Below are positions 11,901 to 19,776 of a stretch of 64,000 nt of DNA, in pieces. A program made the translations under genes and the position numbers. The stretch's first letter is position 1. Each line of letters begins with the position of its first letter. Source of the stretch: Pontederia crassipes (lineage: Eukaryota; Streptophyta; Magnoliopsida; Commelinales; Pontederiaceae); contig CM060186.1 of NCBI GenBank assembly GCA_030549335.1, forward strand, positions 20,203,189 through 20,267,188, read 5' to 3'. The notes under the pieces are model-generated. The model was not told where the DNA came from. It searched no databases and saw nothing but the letters and a program-made list of their open reading frames with translations.

Positions 11901-14900
11901 TTTCCTTTTTCAGGGGCTTTCTAGAAACCCATGATGCTTTTGAAGGATGAAATCTTGATTTCAGTATGTTTCATTTTGCAGATCATATCGCCGTATAATT
12001 TGTATCTGAATCCCAAATTGATAATGAAGGACTACCAGATCTGGCGTCTAGTGACCAACTTCCTCTACTTCCGCAAAATGGGTCAGTGATTCCTCTTTTT
12101 TTTTTTTGTTTCTCGAGGTTATGCTGCTGAAACTGATGTCTGACCATTGCCATGTTATCCATCCTAATGGTTACAATCAATTTATTTAGATTTTTTCATG
12201 TTTATGCCTGACTAGGTGAAGTGCTTCTGGTAGTTGGGTAGTACTACTTCTCAAAAAAAAGTTGGGTACTACTTTCCACCTATCTGTTAGACAGTAAGAA
12301 TTGATGACATGAAACTAATATGATCAAGATAATCCTTCTCAAAAAATATGATCAAGATAAATAAAGTCCATAAGCGAGTCAGAATTAATTTTTTCTAATG
12401 TCACAGTCCTGTAAGATCAATGATTCAGGAGCCAGGAGCGAATGAAGCTTGAAGGACAGTTTTAGCCCTTCGGCCTTAAATTTTCTGAATGATAGTATTA
12501 TCCATATTTGTAGATTAAAAATATTGCACTTCTTACTCATTTGGTCTATGTCATGTTATAACCATCATATTTAAAAGTTATTGTGTGAATACATCTAAAT
12601 TTTGTTACTTTCTTTCTGTGCACTTTGTGTTTTTTTTGTGCTGCTTACCATGGAAGAATCTAAATTTTGGGTATGGTGGTTGATTATTTGCTATACATGT
12701 TGAATTGTATTACCAAAAGAAAAGAAATGGGTTGGTATCAGTGTTGGATGGATGATAAGAATCGTTATAACATATTTCTGGTCTTCATTTTGTTGGTCGA
12801 AATTAGGCATGTAGTGGTCTGATATCAACTTGTATTGGGATTTGGGACTGCAGGGGAGCATCTTCCCCAATCCTCACACTCTATGGTGAAACTTTCTCTT
12901 CCATTTTTTGAATGTTTTTTCTTCTCCTTTATTTTGGATGCTTTGTAGCTGTTTTATTTTGGTTTCCCTGTACATTTTATCTCTGTCCCTTCTTTTCCTT
13001 TTGTTGCATTGAGAACCTACCGAAGGAAACCAGCAACTACATGCTGCTTGTTGGACTGCACAACATTAGTTCGTCCTTGCGCACTTCTCACTACCCATCA
13101 ACATAACAGTGCTAGTGGCACTTAGCTTGAGCTCTGGTCTTCTATATATGCAACGGGTTTCATACAAGTCTTTTATAACCATTTTGCCTGGATTGAAGAA
13201 ACATATTATACTTCTCTCAAAAAAAAGAAAAATATATTTGTCACTGAAACTAAGAAAGAAATCTTGCTGATGTTGGCAGATTTGGATTTCCTATTCCACA
13301 TGTTTTTCCTTGCTCGATATTGCAAATTACTTGAAGAAAATTCATTCAGAGGCCGAACAGCAGATTTCTTCTTCATGCTTTTATTTGGTGCAACTGTTCT
13401 GACAGTCATTGTGCTCGTCGGTGTCATGATACCATATGTATCTGCAACTTTTGCAAGTATTTGGTTTCTAAGTAATTCATTGACATTCATGATGGTCAGT
13501 AACATAACCTTTTGCCACTATGTTAACGAAATCTCTTCATTTTATCTTAAAATATTCTTTTCCATGCTAACTATGCGTATATTACTATCTGCATATGTTT
13601 AGGTCTACGTTTGGAGTAAGCATAACCCCTACATTCACATGAGTTTCTTGGGCCTTTTTACGTTCACAGCAGCTTATCTTCCATGGGTGAGTAAATTATT
13701 ATTTTCCCAGATTTTTTTCAGCTTGGATTCCTTAAATTATCATATTCTAGTGCTCTGACATTTAGCTTCCCGTCAAAAAACAAATGAAAACTTTTGCTAT
13801 ACACAGTCATGCTTACTATTCACTTGAAATCATAGTGGGGCTGGAGTTCTTAAGAGAAATAAGAAGTCGTAAACGAGAGAAGGGGAGGAAAAGAGACTCC
13901 TTGCTGCCGGTTGGAAAGGCAGACGGTCTTTTTTTTTTTCCTTTTTTTTCTTTTGAGGGCAGGCCATCTTCATTGAGAAGATCAGCATCACCCCTGTACT
14001 GCCACCAAGAAAAGAGGGGGAGGGGGGGAGGCATCACATCTTTCCCCCCTCTTCAAACAGAGGGGAGAGAAGGATGGCGCCCTCTCCACTTTTTTGTAGC
14101 TCAATCACATAGAGAGGACTCCAACAATGCTGGTGGCTAGGAGTCCCTGTGGGATGTGGACTTCGGAGGAGAAATAAGGTTGTAGAGGAGAGAAGGGAAA
14201 CTTCTTTGCTGCTGCTTCGAAGGAGGATCACCTTCATAGCGAAAAAGGGGCATCACCCACACTTCTTTTCTAGCAAAGGAAGAGGAGGGGTAACGCCTTT
14301 TCATGAGTCTTTGTCACACAACCACATAGAGGACTCTGACAGTGCCCCTCCCCTCTTTTCTACACAGAACTTGTGTGGGAGGCAGAGTGTCATTGCTTTT
14401 TGCCTCGCAGAAACAAATGTCAGGAGAAATGAAATATTTAGAGATTGGAAAAGGGGAAACAATGAAGAAAAATGTTACTGAGAGAAGGATCTACACTGCG
14501 AGGTCAATTGCAGCACTCATGTAGCGTGGCACAATGCTACAGTATCATTATCTCCACAAAGATAATGAGAAGCAAGTCCTTTACTACATTGCTATACTCC
14601 TTTTTGCTTCAACATTGTAAGATATATGCTCATACGTTCGGTTTAATAAAATTGGTTATTCGGCCTGACCTGACAATATTGAATTGGCAGGATCACTAGG
14701 ATCTTTGATAGTCACTAGTCCATATGCAACACGAGAGGTCTATAGATAGTTGCTTCCGGGCAGCAACATCCCGGATTCGCTCATATTAGACTGCATATGC
14801 ATCTTCCCGCATGTTCATGGGCCGCCTCATGAATGACCCCGTGGCATATACACCTTAGGTCAGGATCTTCATCTGAATGTTGAAACGTGACTGGACTCAC

Positions 14901-16683
14901 CAAAGTTCATGAAGCCAGATGGGCACAACTAGTAGATACCACATGTGCACTATGTGGGTCGATTGATGAAAATATTGCCTACTTGCTTTTCAAGTGCCCC
15001 ATAGCTCATCAGGTGTGGGGCCACCTCGCTTACATGGACATCACTCATTGAACGTGGATTGCCTTTGCCTTTTGAAGTTCGCTTCGGGCACTTGGTGCAC
15101 ATAATAGCCACGAGTGGATACACCCAATGGTGGTATCCTTGGCCACCACCTGTTGCAGTGTAATCACACCATTTTTTTAAGCTGAGAGGTGATATCGAGA
15201 ATATTGTACACATCTCTTTTTTGGTTAGCGAGTGAAATTTTGGATAGTATATTTTGGTATGTGTCCAAAACCATTAGCTTTTTACTTTTTTTAGCCTTTC
15301 ATACACACTTGTACATCTGACTTGGACACTCGCTGGTCACTGTTTCCTCCCTAAATAAAGGTTTTGCCATGGTGAAATTAGATTTTTTTTTTAAGGCCAT
15401 GGTGAAATTAGATTGTATTGACCAATTTTTATAAAAGTTTGAGCCGATAAGAACAACACTATTAATTTTATAATCTTAACATTTTCCCTCACGTATGGAC
15501 TGCAAACAACTTTGGTCTAGCCTAGTCCACCACTTAGACAACTATAGAAATTTTTTTCTTAATACAAGCATTGACAACGTTTGAACTCAGGAGCTTTGAC
15601 TCTAATAATATGTGAAATAAGATGTGCTGACTAGCTTAAGCCGATAGGAAGAGCGACATTGTTAATTTTATAATCTTAACTACCATATTAATTGGCAATA
15701 TTCTCCCTAAAAAAGTAATTAGCAACATTGTTCACTAAGCTTATTCGGCTTCTATCATTATGACCAAGAATTGAACAGTTTGTGTGTTTCCTGTAACTAT
15801 TTTATCCTTTTTAAATTCAAATTTGGACTTCTTATTTTGTTCCTTATAGTTTTCCAAGGTTATACTTCTCAAAAAAAAAAAAATTTCCAAGGTTATGAAG
15901 CTAAGCACAAGGTTGTGTTCCATATGAAATAAATTTAGAGTGGCTATTACTATATGAAAAATATTCAACAGATTACAACATTACCTCAAGAGAAAACAGA
16001 TTATAACAAGTTTCCTGTTTTTTTTTCGTGAACATCTTATTGTTTACATTTGTTTTATAGGTTCTTCTGGGATTCTCTATTCTTGTTGGTAGCAGCACAT
16101 GGGTGGATCTATTGGTACGGTAATAAACTATGGACTGCTGAATATGTAGGATATTGCCAATATATATAAATGGTTGTATTCACGAATCATGATTGCTCAG
16201 AAAACTTTGGTAAAGTGAAGTGCCTAATTCAGGCCGTAAAGTTCTTGGTTCCCAATGTCCTGGATTTGATAAAACCAAAACCTTTTCCTTTGTCGTTCAC
16301 ATGAAGGAATTTCTTTTAAGAAAAAGTGTTAGTAACTAGAGTATAGCATTAGAAAATTGTGATTCTTCAATGCATGTTTATAGTTGGTGTTATTTTTCAA
16401 ATGGCTAACCTTAGTCTGGATATTGCTTGCGTAGGCACTGAATCTTTTGTTTGACCTTTGTTGTTACTCCTCCAGCCTTTATGTTGAACTTGTTTCTGAA
16501 TGCTAGGGAATGATAGCGGGTCATGCATATTACTACCTCCAGGATGTTTATCCCCGGATGACTGGACGTCAACCCTTGAAGACCCCTATGTTCATTAATG
16601 CACTTTTTCCTCGGGATGACGTCATTGTAGCCCAGCCCGCAAATGCAGTGATTGCTCCCCCGCAAGATCTTCACCAGAATTAG
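8921..16683 (+). CDS. DER2: Derlin (Der1-like ER membrane protein), six exons, 242 aa
   Basis: Exons: 8921-9019, 11982-12081, 13280-13494, 13603-13686, 16061-16114 and 16507-16683. All introns are GT-AG and phases fit exactly, giving 242 aa; the family is about 240-250 aa. It starts [20 protein letters not shown], as plant Derlin-2 proteins do. The Derlin WR motif is at residues 54-55 ([13 protein letters not shown]). [36 protein letters not shown] and [18 protein letters not shown] follow. Derlins are rhomboid-fold pseudoproteases with several membrane helices in the ER that help retrotranslocate misfolded proteins for degradation (ERAD). The rhomboid catalytic Ser/His are not expected and not seen. 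Introns 1 and 4 are swollen by insertions. The start follows a GA-rich leader. Identification is from conserved sequence; expression is not shown. Confidence 0.95.
9471..11345 (+). mobile_element. TR-GAG-like short LTR retrotransposon in Derlin intron 1
   Basis: The LTRs are 9471-9805 and 11002-11345, each opening TGATAGGAACC and closing CCTAYCA. The 5-bp target duplication CCCTT lies on both sides (9466-9470, 11346-11350). A primer-binding site matching initiator tRNA-Met (GGGTATCAGAGC) follows the 5' LTR, and a purine tract (AAAGAGGGCGGGAA) precedes the 3' LTR. The interior of about 1.2 kb encodes one gag-like protein at about 10028-10861 ([10 protein letters not shown] and [11 protein letters not shown] match Ty3/Gypsy-type retrotrans_gag) and no pol. 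This is the layout of non-autonomous TR-GAG elements. By eye the LTRs differ by a few per cent, so it is a fairly young insertion. Both ends look whole. Confidence 0.88.
11668..11772 (+). pseudogene. Decayed second copy of Derlin exon 1
   Basis: The 105 bp align to Derlin exon 1 (8921-9019): [12 protein letters not shown] matches [12 protein letters not shown], and IIGCSLY before a GT matches TVGCSLE before a GT. The position of the start codon reads ATA, a TAG stands where codon 3 (CAG) is, and six extra bases lie before the IGCS part, so it cannot serve as a coding first exon. Weaker similarity continues upstream (GCGTTTGGGTTAGGT against TCGTTTGGTTTGGTC) and downstream. A promoter plus exon 1 segment of about 350 bp therefore seems duplicated. 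The gag-only LTR element separates the two copies. Confidence 0.75.
12233..12272 (+). repeat. Micro-insertion of a retroposon tail (Derlin intron 2)
   Basis: TTCTCAAAAAAAA (12248-12260) lies between GTTGGGTAGTACTAC and GTTGGGTACTAC. This is a target-duplication-like pair with a 3-bp length difference. It looks like the last bases and poly(A) of a LINE-type 3' end inserted by target-primed reverse transcription. Confidence 0.6.
12318..12360 (+). repeat. Micro-insertion of a retroposon tail (Derlin intron 2)
   Basis: TCCTTCTCAAAAA (12333-12345) is flanked by a perfect 15-bp duplication, ATATGATCAAGATAA, at 12318-12332 and 12346-12360. It lies only 46 bp from the previous micro-insertion. Confidence 0.75.
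13865..14370 (+). repeat. Duplicated G/A-rich block in Derlin intron 4
   Basis: Two diverged direct copies, at about 13865-14135 and 14185-14370, share a CTTTGCTGC/CCTTGCTGC start, a CATCTTCATTG/CACCTTCATAG core, CATCACCC, and an end CACATAGAGAGGACTC/CACATAGAGGACTC. The composition (long G and T runs) differs from the surrounding intron. The open frames here are fortuitous. Source unknown; probably a transposon fragment. Confidence 0.55.
14870..15360 (+). mobile_element. LINE fragment with zf-RVT domain (Derlin intron 4)
   Basis: The plus strand reads [20 protein letters not shown] then [18 protein letters not shown] at about 14910-15040. This is the CALCG...HLLFxCP...VW signature of the zinc-binding reverse-transcriptase domain (zf-RVT) near the C-terminus of plant LINE ORF2 proteins. 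The downstream part ends CCTCCCTAAATAAAG near 15360, which resembles a LINE 3' end. It is 5'-truncated, and the upstream limit is not clear. Confidence 0.65.
15366..15413 (-). repeat. Micro-insertion of a retroposon tail (Derlin intron 4)
   Basis: TTTTTTTTTAAG (15384-15395; CTTAAAAAAAAA on the minus strand) sits between perfect 18-bp copies of GCCATGGTGAAATTAGAT (15366-15383 and 15396-15413). This is the longest duplication in the series. Confidence 0.75.
15689..15729 (+). repeat. Older micro-insertion of a retroposon tail (Derlin intron 4)
   Basis: CTCCCTAAAAAAG (15703-15715) lies between TAATTGGCAATATT and TAATTAGCAACATT, which are 14-bp flanks with two mismatches. The insert resembles the CCTCCCTAAATAAAG end of the LINE fragment about 350 bp upstream. 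Confidence 0.5.
15851..15896 (+). repeat. Micro-insertion of a retroposon tail (Derlin intron 4)
   Basis: ACTTCTCAAAAAAAAAAAAA (15864-15883) lies between perfect 13-bp copies of TTTCCAAGGTTAT (15851-15863 and 15884-15896). Confidence 0.78.
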
Positions 16684-17503
16684 TAATGTCACTAAGAAAG
16701 GATTTGAGATTCTGCCGAATTAATGGTGTATAGATCGGAGAGGAAAGGGATCGATATTGCTAGCTGCCCTCCACAACCTTGGTTGGCCAACAGGGCCTAT
16801 TATGAGCATGTTATGTAATTATCTGTGTTTTTTTCCCTCTTCAGAAGTGTCATAGGATTCAGCTCTTGGCGTCTTCCTTTGTAATCAATCCTTGTAGATG
16901 AACCAGAATCCCAGCTAGATATCTGTGTATATACAATTGGAGTTACTATAGATAAGTTGTTCTCTTGTCAAAAGCATAAGTTGCACTCCATGGGAATCTT
17001 TTTCTGAGCCATGATGGCTACTATTTCACAGGATTCGTATACCCAGAAACCGACTAATGATCAAAGAAGTTAGTAATGTTATATTAACTATCAAACAACA
17101 GCTTTTCCTCCATCATGTTCTATTAGGAAGGAAATATAATGTTTTAATAGGTGTAAAATTTTGCGAATGCAATGGAGTTAAGAAATATAACTCAATTGAT
17201 ATATTAAGTCTGTTATAAAATTTTTTTCTCTTTAACTAGAATATGTTTTTTGCATTGCAATTTACAAGGTTGTACTGATGTCTAAAAAAAATAAAGATTG
17301 AAAACTAATAAACGTGTGTGTGATCCATATCCTTTTGTATCCTGTGAGATCACTATTATAGGGTTTATTGATTTATGATTTAGATATAATTATAATAATT
17401 TTATTTGCTAAAATAATTAACTTACATGCGCTTTTCTTTTCATAATAAGATAACCGAAAAAGGAAAAAAAAAACTAAATGTAAATTGAGGAGGCTGATTC
17501 GTA
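16684..17503. other. Derlin 3' flank, no gene seen
   Basis: The Derlin 3' UTR probably occupies the first 200-400 bp after the stop. Several T-rich and AATAAA-like stretches occur, but none stands out as the poly(A) signal. The remainder is AT-rich and holds no recognised element. Confidence 0.4.
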
Positions 17504-19776
17504 TGGCATTGCCAGACTCCAAGCTCCGAGGAGGAAGGAGCTGCAAGTCGATCGGTGGGTATTGGGGCGCCCAGGAGCTCTCTGCCGCCGGTTTCCGACC
17601 CGCCGGTCCCGCCAGCCGAATCAGCGTCGGGGTCGAGGGGCTTCAGCGGCGGCGGCGACGATGCTCCCCTCTTCAAGGGCTTCGTCATGAACAAGCGCGC
17701 CGCCTTGCCGCTTTATCCTACGTGTCTTGTGCCGGTCGGTATTACCACCTCCACGACCCATAAGAAGAATATACTTTTTTCGCATGTTCTTTAGCTGCGG
17801 TCTCTAGGTTTCTAAACTTTCGTCTGTGTTCCAAGAACTACCGAAAATTTACAATCGGACGATATGGTGCTAGTTTTGGTTTGACGGCTTTTTTTTTCCT
17901 TAACGAGGGATTAGGTTTTCCTGGATGAAGAGACGAGAAGATATGTGAAATTGCATGTTTGGATGACCAAGACATGTCCACATGAAAAAGGCCAAAGAAC
18001 GAAGCAATTCACTTTCCTTCTTTCTGCTTCTGGTCATAATTTTTGCAAATATTGACATTAGAATACTCTACACTTCTCCGATTTGATCAAAACTGCCGTC
18101 TACTGCCATTATTTGAACAGAATGCAATCCATCCTTTCGTATCTCTTCAGAAATGAAATCACACGCAGTGTTACTAAATTGTGGTGCGGCTCAGTTGGAA
18201 ATTTTGGTCTACTTTCTAGTGATATCAACTGATAGTTTTTTTTTTTTTTTGAGGAGAACTGATAGGTAATTTCTATGTTAGTATTTCTTTTTTCTTGTCA
18301 TGTTCTCTTCTTTTCTTATTCAGATTGCTTGATTATGTAATATGGAAGATGATAAGGTTCTTACGAATTATATACTGCTTGATAGCAAGGTTTTTTAGTT
18401 AGCAAGAAAAGAAGAATGCTTATTCTTGATGTCATGGGAAGACAGGGATACATGGACAAAAGTAAAACAGAAATTCAGAGAAATAGGAATACACACTTTG
18501 TAATTGTAAATAGTAGTTAAATACTTAAATCATGGTTAAACATAGGTTTGGTGGACAAAAATACATTTCACTTTCTCCTGTCTGGTTCTGGCGTTTTTTA
18601 ATTCTTATTTGTGTCGAAGAATGCAAGTTAAATAGTTTTAACTAAGATCATTCAGAAATTTTACTAGTTCTGTATAGATACTATTGAATTTTAATCATTA
18701 CTCCATACAATTTGCCTTCCTTTATTGTCTTAATGCTTAAGCATTCTATTTATTGCTGTTCTTTTTGCAGTACTTCTGGTGATGTTTAACAAAGCAGCTT
18801 TGTCTTCATATAATTTCCCTTGTGCCAAAACATCATAATTATTCCAGGTGCTTCTTGCCCAAGTTAAAGTAACAAAAAACAAAAAATAGATTTGATTTAT
18901 TCATTGCTCTCACATCACCAAGGTCTTATCAGCGTTGCATTGATCTTTTTTGTAGCCTTTGTTGTGGGAGCTCAAGACTTGTCGGTCGATGCTTGTCGAT
19001 GTGTAGTGTTAATAGCAAACATAACAAGTGCAATTTGTCTTGCAACAGTAGCCCGTATTGGTAATATTCTCGCTCTCTATCTAAGCACACCCCTTTCATG
19101 TAATGTATTTTTTATCTTAACACATTGGTTTCTCCAATTTTTGACAGGAAAATCTAGTGGTCGCATGTGTTGTGTAATGGTGATAAGTCATGAGCCATTC
19201 TAGTTTAAACCCTTGTTGCTCGTGCACACTGACCTTGGAGCACTGCTTGTATTCTTCAGATATGGATTCATGTTAAATATACCATGAAGTAGCTTTCTTC
19301 GTATCTGGACCCGTCTCATTACCCCGGATATATCTTCAAGGTGATATGGCCCGTATAATGGTTTTTTCTTCTCTTCATTCACTCGGATTCCAAGTGAGTT
19401 TGAGCTCTTATTTTTTAGAGTGTTTTGATTTTTCATTGTTCTTAGACTTTGATGTCATTCCAAATTGAAAAAGAAGTGACAAAGGTTAAGCATAACCCTA
19501 TGATGTGACAAAGTGTTTTGAGTTATGCACACTTCGTATCGTCTTTGGATAAGTTTAATATTTTATATGTTAGAACTGCTCGGCTTTGAAAGCTGTGTTG
19601 AAAGATAGAATTTTCTTATACTGATACACCATTAAGAAAATTTTCCATTTGCCTTTTGCAGGTTGCAATCTCTGTTCTTGTACACTTGCAATTTTCTTGA
19701 ACACGTCATGGAACTCAGCAGTCACACCACACAAACAATGTGCGGGAACCTATGAGTCAATTTTGCCCGTGCTCCG
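17504..19776 (+). pseudogene. Unrecognised gene or gene relic with exon-like, membrane-protein-like pieces
   Basis: I do not recognise this gene. Exon-like pieces lie in order on the plus strand. A GC-rich piece at about 17510-17735 reads SSEEEGAASRSVGIGAP..., then a Pro/Ser-rich part and APLFKGFVMNKRAAL. Positions 18923-19060, between AG and GT, read LISVALIFFVAFVVGAQDL and then VVLIANITSAICLATVARI, two hydrophobic stretches that could span a membrane. At 19148-19203 a short piece ends at a stop. At about 19690-19775 NSAVTPHKQCAGTYESILPV is followed by GTAACT. The GC-rich start and the splice-like borders suggest a real gene, but an early stop after the third piece suggests decay, mis-chosen exons or a species-specific gene. 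No function is proposed. Confidence 0.35.
18227..18265 (-). repeat. Micro-insertion of a retroposon tail, minus orientation
   Basis: A T15-GAGGAG insert (18236-18256; CTCCTC plus poly(A) on the minus strand) lies between perfect 9-bp copies of AACTGATAG (18227-18235 and 18257-18265). Confidence 0.65.

Follow-up and report, generated by a model that had tools for sequence, protein, structure and literature searches.

What is the origin of the very short insertions found in and around a Derlin gene of Pontederia crassipes? In the 64,000-nucleotide stretch analysed here (GenBank assembly GCA_030549335.1, contig CM060186.1, positions 20,203,189 to 20,267,188; hereafter the window), adenine runs enclosed by direct repeats lie in two introns of this gene and downstream of it. 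A preliminary description had listed six such sites, interpreting them as extreme 5' truncations of one or two families of long interspersed nuclear elements (LINEs), and all six stretches were found in the sequence as given. Our analysis makes it likely that such sites were generated by target-primed reverse transcription of an L1-type LINE RNA, which stopped 4-5 nt before a hairpin and was followed by completed integration. The insertion itself is well shown by a tail corresponding to a LINE 3' end, a target duplication, exactly empty homoeologous sites and a pile-up of 5' ends.

Sites 1, 2 and 5 (forward strand) and site 6 (reverse strand) share a common build, in which CTTCTC or CTCCTC is followed by an A-run and both are enclosed by direct repeats of 9-16 bp (Table 1). 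The repeats score 11, 16, 13 and 9 at sites 1, 2, 5 and 6, respectively; the copies at site 1 differ by one mismatch over 14 ungapped positions, while those at sites 2, 3, 5 and 6 are perfect, as had been described for several of the sites. The motif CT[CT]CTC followed by at least five adenines is present in the window only at sites 1, 2, 5 and 6, all four of which have a flanking repeat scoring at least 9, and the combination of motif and repeat did not appear in any of 200 third-order Markov shuffles of the window. From the genome-wide average, about 0.28 occurrences of CTTCTC-A6+ would be expected here, against the three present; this suggests a local cluster, although the window was itself chosen post hoc.

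Could such structures be produced by chance or by slippage, in AT-rich DNA where direct repeats happen to adjoin A-runs? A generic scan for repeat, A-run and repeat, run with no tail motif, returned 27 sites over 264 kb, compared with 1-4 in five Markov shuffles and 22 in the reversed sequence, and on this count a chance origin would be reasonable. Since the generic signal is barely above the reversed control, the tail motif CTTCTC/CTCCTC is required, and it is from this motif that the signal comes; the hexamers preceding A-runs in the 264 kb sample revealed nothing clear. Across the searched genome (1.13 Gb, 43 contigs), CTTCTC-A10 occurs 2136 times, compared with 65 for the pattern read backwards (33-fold). 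The composition of a 200 kb sample, one half of which was taken near the window, would predict about 82 occurrences, given its CTTCTC frequency and its 38 A10 runs. CTCCTC-A10 occurs 1527 times against 31 (49-fold), and the shorter CTTCTC-A6 4893 times against 608. The genome scan proposed in the preliminary description thus came out in its favour. This enrichment, together with the swapped-flank control and the exact empty sites described below, refutes chance for the CTTCTC class and leaves it next to no probability as an explanation. The evidence for the tail-only share of CTCCTC consists of site 6 and the pattern counts.

The tail-only class was defined on all 80 CTTCTC-A10 places listed for the contig designated C1, with about 185-200 nt of upstream sequence for 20 of them (L029-L048) and about 350 nt for the other 60. 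A site was called tail-only when the letters immediately preceding CTTCTC recurred in its downstream flank at a repeat score of at least 8, the repeat ending between -3 and +9 nt from the tail. By this definition 38 of the 80 sites are tail-only, with target duplications of 8-18 bp, whereas swapping the flanks gave 32 of 6320 combinations, that is 0.4 per 80. The inserts are 14-27 bp long (median 20), the whole A-run included. Their 5' edge lies 0-1 nt upstream of CTTCTC in 27 cases and within -3 to +3 in 36, the other two being at +5 and +9. A single insertion is represented twice, by L029 and L031, and the 38 sites thus correspond to 37 insertions; three further places with a tail-only look (L032, L063 and L083) have worn repeats scoring 6-7 and were left out. 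The duplications were also inspected for a TT/AA-type nick, and 18 of the 38 start with AA, a count biased by the merging of these adenines with the tail.

A second set, comprising 14 of the 20 sites listed for contig C2, contained six tail-only sites at the same score and two weaker ones; one of the six, L121, is the C2 copy of L087. The same contig carries a CTTCTC-A10 site (L127, C2:10005127-10005572) whose 22 bp repeat, aligned at a score of 19, ends 143 nt upstream; no hairpin was recognised there, and this may be a different element using the same tail.

The preliminary description had suggested that empty sites, lacking exactly one repeat plus the tail, should be sought, and this could be carried out within a single genome. 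The flanks of the 37 independent insertions were joined and the genome was searched with the joins, the L029 join alone being used for the L029/L031 pair. Along the flanks that span an empty site, the agreement between C1 and C2 is about 90-98%, and the order of the matches is reversed along the contigs; from these matches and their order the two contigs look like homoeologues. C2 is empty at 15 of the 37 insertions, with a length difference of -4 to 0 bp relative to the join, i.e. exactly the tail and one duplication are missing. At 14 of these the match extends at least 57 nt past the duplication upstream and at least 52 nt downstream (23 and 54 nt at L058). A further 13 insertions are filled in C2, where the match exceeds the join by 27-38 bp, a length that agrees to within 4 bp with the sum of insert and duplication in C1; L045 was also judged filled, from two split matches, which makes 14. 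The C2 counterpart of L106 is longer by 18 bp and ambiguous, and that of L071 starts exactly at the duplication, in a tandemly repeated flank, and was counted as neither empty nor filled. No C2 match was obtained for L041, L079 and L097, of which L079 was covered only by a search that scored 40 of 80 candidates. This check likewise supported the preliminary description. The exact empty homoeologues imply that the insertion consists of one duplication plus the tail, and the insertions were probably made both before and after the parting of the two subgenomes, precise loss between short repeats being the less simple explanation.

Several joins also matched other contigs. Copies of the L029 family are filled on C7 and C1 and empty on C2, C6 and C9, and still others differ by +6; this tail-only insertion (L029, L031) was multiplied with its repeated carrier, with copies at C7:54.5-55.2 Mb and C1:0.95 Mb. 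L064 is filled in C2, and its flank also recurs elsewhere, e.g. on C8 and C10, in copies that run across the join almost unchanged in length. For L057, which is empty in C2, a copy at C13:27140246-27140437 looks filled, which suggests a transposed duplicate postdating the insertion.

The same comparison bears on the possibility that the LINE insertions were originally longer and that a subsequent deletion removed their middle part, only the tail being left. At two sites C2 has a longer stretch, of about 270 bp at L062 (C2:22716756-22717178) and, between copies of the same target, of about 114 bp at L069 (C2:19076132-19076419), and both cases would fit a later deletion in C1. Deletion would not be expected, however, to leave the 5' duplication intact and to place the 5' edge 0-1 nt from CTTCTC in 27 of 38 inserts, and the 13 homoeologous pairs are equally short to within 4 bp. 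We therefore regard this explanation as extremely improbable. The C2 stretches at L062 and L069 could also be longer insertions at the same target.

What, then, is the parent of these tails? Most of the other 42 C1 sites have, directly upstream, a stem-loop of the form GGATG...CATCC, followed by a T-rich spacer and then by CTTCTC; L051, L072, L095 and L102 belong to neither class. The hairpin layout fits 29 copies, of which 25 have a spacer of exactly 5 nt; these 29 include L064, a tail-only site and chance match, and the doubtful L088 and L104, with predicted folds lacking the hairpin. At least four stem types can be distinguished, e.g. GGATGACAACC/GGTGGTCATCC, GGATGTGAGC/GCTCACATCC, GGATGGTTAAC/GTTAATCATCC and GGATGGTTGC/GCAACCATCC, and as all of them have the tail, the suggestion of one or two LINE families had to be abandoned. 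Over 26 distinct hairpins the arms pair in 212 of 260 cells (82%), as against 128/260, 51/234, 54/260 and 68/208 (21-49%) when one arm is shifted 1-2 positions against the other; the changes in the stem are thus compensating, as in the 3' stem-loops of stringent-type plant L1 elements. Fold z-scores, obtained from mononucleotide shuffles of the upstream 48 nt, are -2.1 or lower in 28 of the 35 sites which have a CATCC arm and are not tail-only, the lowest being -6.4.

By eye, a LINE reading frame can be seen to end upstream of the hairpin in many copies. Pfam matches identify RVT_1, zf-RVT and Exo_endo_phos in the sequence encoded by L110, and RVT_1 and zf-RVT in L109 and L111. The CTTCTC-An tail is identical in the tail-only inserts and at the 3' end of the LINE copies. 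On these sequence grounds the tails are the 3' ends of LINEs, of L1 type judging by domain content and by what is generally known of such elements, and at four of the six window sites the reading as extreme LINE truncations holds. The exact sequence CATCCTTTNN stands upstream of 439 of the 1527 CTCCTC-A10 sites and at 22 of the 80 C1 CTTCTC sites, and by this token CTCCTC appears to be a tail used within the same LINE group. A 20 bp insert is too short for family assignment, and maize short interspersed nuclear elements (SINEs) which share L1 3' ends are known (PMC3747384, available portions); the micro-inserts might accordingly derive from a SINE or another RNA with an L1 tail. The continuation of many hairpin copies into LINE frames, confirmed by Pfam in the three longer stretches, argues against such a source, to which we assign only a very small chance. 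A tRNA scan of the window returned none, and no systematic SINE search was made.

The hairpin and the heaping of truncations just before it go beyond the preliminary description, and together they lead to a mechanism. The 5' ends are piled up at CTTCTC, which indicates that, at roughly half of the sites bearing the tail, the enzyme came to a stop 4-5 nt away from the stem; since the duplications are of ordinary length, integration seems to end normally after about 20 nt of complementary DNA (cDNA). In the scheme which we favour, the LINE enzyme would open the target and prime on the A-tail, copy the poly(A) and the 6-nt tail CTTCTC (or CTCCTC), and halt 4-5 nt from the base of the GGATG...CATCC stem-loop. 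The halt might be caused by a folded or protein-held hairpin which blocks the enzyme, or by failure of the enzyme to release the hairpin. Second-strand cleavage and synthesis would then finish as usual, giving a normal duplication of 8-18 bp around an insert of about 20 bp. A published structure of human L1 ORF2p has density above the n+4 template base (PMC10830420, available portions). Whether the 3' hairpin acts as a gate, at which the enzyme is held and which about half of the integrations never pass, these being completed all the same, appears to us evenly balanced.

Several points weigh against a stop imposed by the hairpin. That the hairpin causes the stop is something we infer, as the simplest reading of the pile-up, and the LINE families compared were hairpin-bearing ones only. 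The stop is not absolute (the inserts of L037 and L091 end inside the hairpin), and in 7 of the 35 CATCC-arm copies the predicted fold does not clearly surpass those of the shuffles. The longer C2 stretches at L062 and L069 are to be added here, as is the result of searching the flanks of sites 1, 2, 3, 5 and 6 against the assembly, which yielded no close second copy and hence no empty counterpart. Human L1 ORF2p is reported to be highly processive (PMC10830420, available portions), and the authors of the same paper prefer host cleavage of RNA or intermediates to polymerase failure as the source of 5' truncation.

The last point leads to the main rival, in which the template is already short: the LINE RNA would be cleaved just 3' of the hairpin by a host nuclease or in the course of decay, and the remaining CUUCUC-poly(A) stub would be copied up to its 5' end. 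A template cut at this position gives the same product, with an equally fixed 5' end, and host cleavage is the explanation preferred for human L1 truncation in the available text of PMC10830420. The enzyme would have to use a stub devoid of the hairpin, yet the conservation of the hairpin suggests that it is needed in recognition, going by the stringent-type model (PMC3747384, available portions). We consider copying of a pre-cut template unlikely, and continue to prefer a stop of reverse transcription in front of the hairpin.

How do these insertions compare with known systems? They have the marks of target-primed reverse transcription as it occurs in the L1 clade, namely duplications of variable length, an A-tail joined to the element's own 3' terminus, and a parent with endonuclease and reverse transcriptase. 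Like 5'-truncated L1-clade LINEs, they combine target duplications, an A-tail and a LINE 3' end with loss of the 5' part; unlike in those, truncation is heaped 4-5 nt before the 3' hairpin instead of being spread, and about half of the C1 CTTCTC-A10 sites have only 14-27 bp, compared with 100-1,000 bp in the truncated members described in the available portions of PMC3747384. For stringent LINEs, among them a monocot L1 lineage shared with maize SINEs, stem-loops at the 3' terminus have been described (PMC3747384; stem-loops also in PMC5135761; available portions of both). The elements found here resemble the stringent-type plant L1s of Ohshima (monocot 1a, LINE1-1_ZM, ZmSINE2/3) in their putative membership of the L1 clade and in having a variable, compensating stem near the 3' end. 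The monocot 1a type has a conserved CGAG in its 3' flank and a UCU loop (PMC3747384, available portions), whereas the flank here is T-rich and followed by CTTCTC/CTCCTC; none of the listed hairpins has CGAG in its 3' flank, TCT is present in some loops only, and we therefore do not class these elements as monocot 1a members. Tail-only insertions are not mentioned in the available portions of PMC3747384, and a literature search with partial coverage, mostly of titles and abstract openings, found no report of tail-only LINE insertions or of hairpin stops.

Insertions of poly(A) only, or orphan tails, in which the tail has been copied and the body is missing, are familiar from studies of human L1. 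Those considered here differ in being tied to a defined stop before a hairpin and in having been checked against homoeologous empty sites.

Table 1. Insertion sites and landmarks in the window (positions counted from its first nucleotide).
Feature	Position	Strand	Description
Site 1, tail-only insertion	12232..12273	+	CTTCTC-A8 at 12247-12260; repeats 12232-12245 / 12260-12273; Derlin intron
Site 2, tail-only insertion	12317..12360	+	CTTCTC-A6 at 12335-12346; perfect 16 bp repeats 12317-12332 / 12345-12360
Possible older tail	13211..13226	+	CTTCTCTC-A8; same intron as sites 1-2; no clear duplication
Derlin exon, DER1 (PF04511)	13279..13494	+	Domain match; landmark between the two intron clusters
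Site 3, insertion-like	15366..15413	-	Perfect 18 bp direct repeats around CTT-A9
Site 4, not confirmed	15689..15729	+	Imperfect 14 bp repeats around CTCCCTAAAAAAG
Site 5, tail-only insertion	15851..15896	+	CTTCTC-A13 at 15865-15883; perfect 13 bp repeats 15851-15863 / 15884-15896
Site 6, tail-only insertion	18227..18265	-	CTCCTC-A15 at 18236-18256; perfect 9 bp repeats; downstream of Derlin

Within the window, with splice sites read by eye, sites 1-2 lie in one Derlin intron and sites 3-5 in another, and site 6 is downstream of the gene (Table 1). Sites 1, 2, 5 and 6 agree with the structure proposed in the preliminary description, that of a tail between repeats; the other two depart from it. 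The A-run of site 3 is preceded by CTT and not by TTCTC, and site 4 was not confirmed as an insertion: there are 2 mismatches between its repeats over 14 positions, an exact 8-mer scan missed it, and a G follows the A-run. Chance or slippage probably accounts for it.

A dispersed repeat of about 285 bp occupies positions 15396-15680, its edges adjoining sites 3 and 4; its copies are about 70-77% alike among the matches listed, and some are arranged in tandem, e.g. on C12 and C7. Two relatives of the Derlin gene, L113 (C18:10833400-10836400) and L114 (C23:544200-547200), agree with one another at about 96% along 2.1 kb; with the best-matching exons of the window their agreement is about 82-85%. 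Apart from exons, these paralogues on C18 and C23 have a dispersed repeat and some short segments in common with the window; no empty sites were found in them. Despite the apparent homoeology of C1 and C2, the search gave no close homoeologue of the Derlin gene in the window itself.

The causes of truncation in LINE insertions are described as poorly understood in a recent study of human L1 (PMC10830420, available portions). The truncation point described here amounts to a natural experiment that can be counted, combining a single stop position and a structural suspect with 38 cases on one contig. It opens two questions to testing: does RNA structure determine where truncation occurs, and is a long cDNA necessary for second-strand cleavage? 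Were the proportion on C1 to apply elsewhere, some 1,000 of the 2136 CTTCTC-A10 sites would by extrapolation be tail-only insertions. They represent a class of intron indels which should be too short for repeat maskers and which can be dated to before or after the homoeologue split. If the hairpin does act as a gate, integration would be independent of a long cDNA, roughly one invisible insertion of 20 bp would accompany each LINE jump, and such indels would scale with LINE activity.

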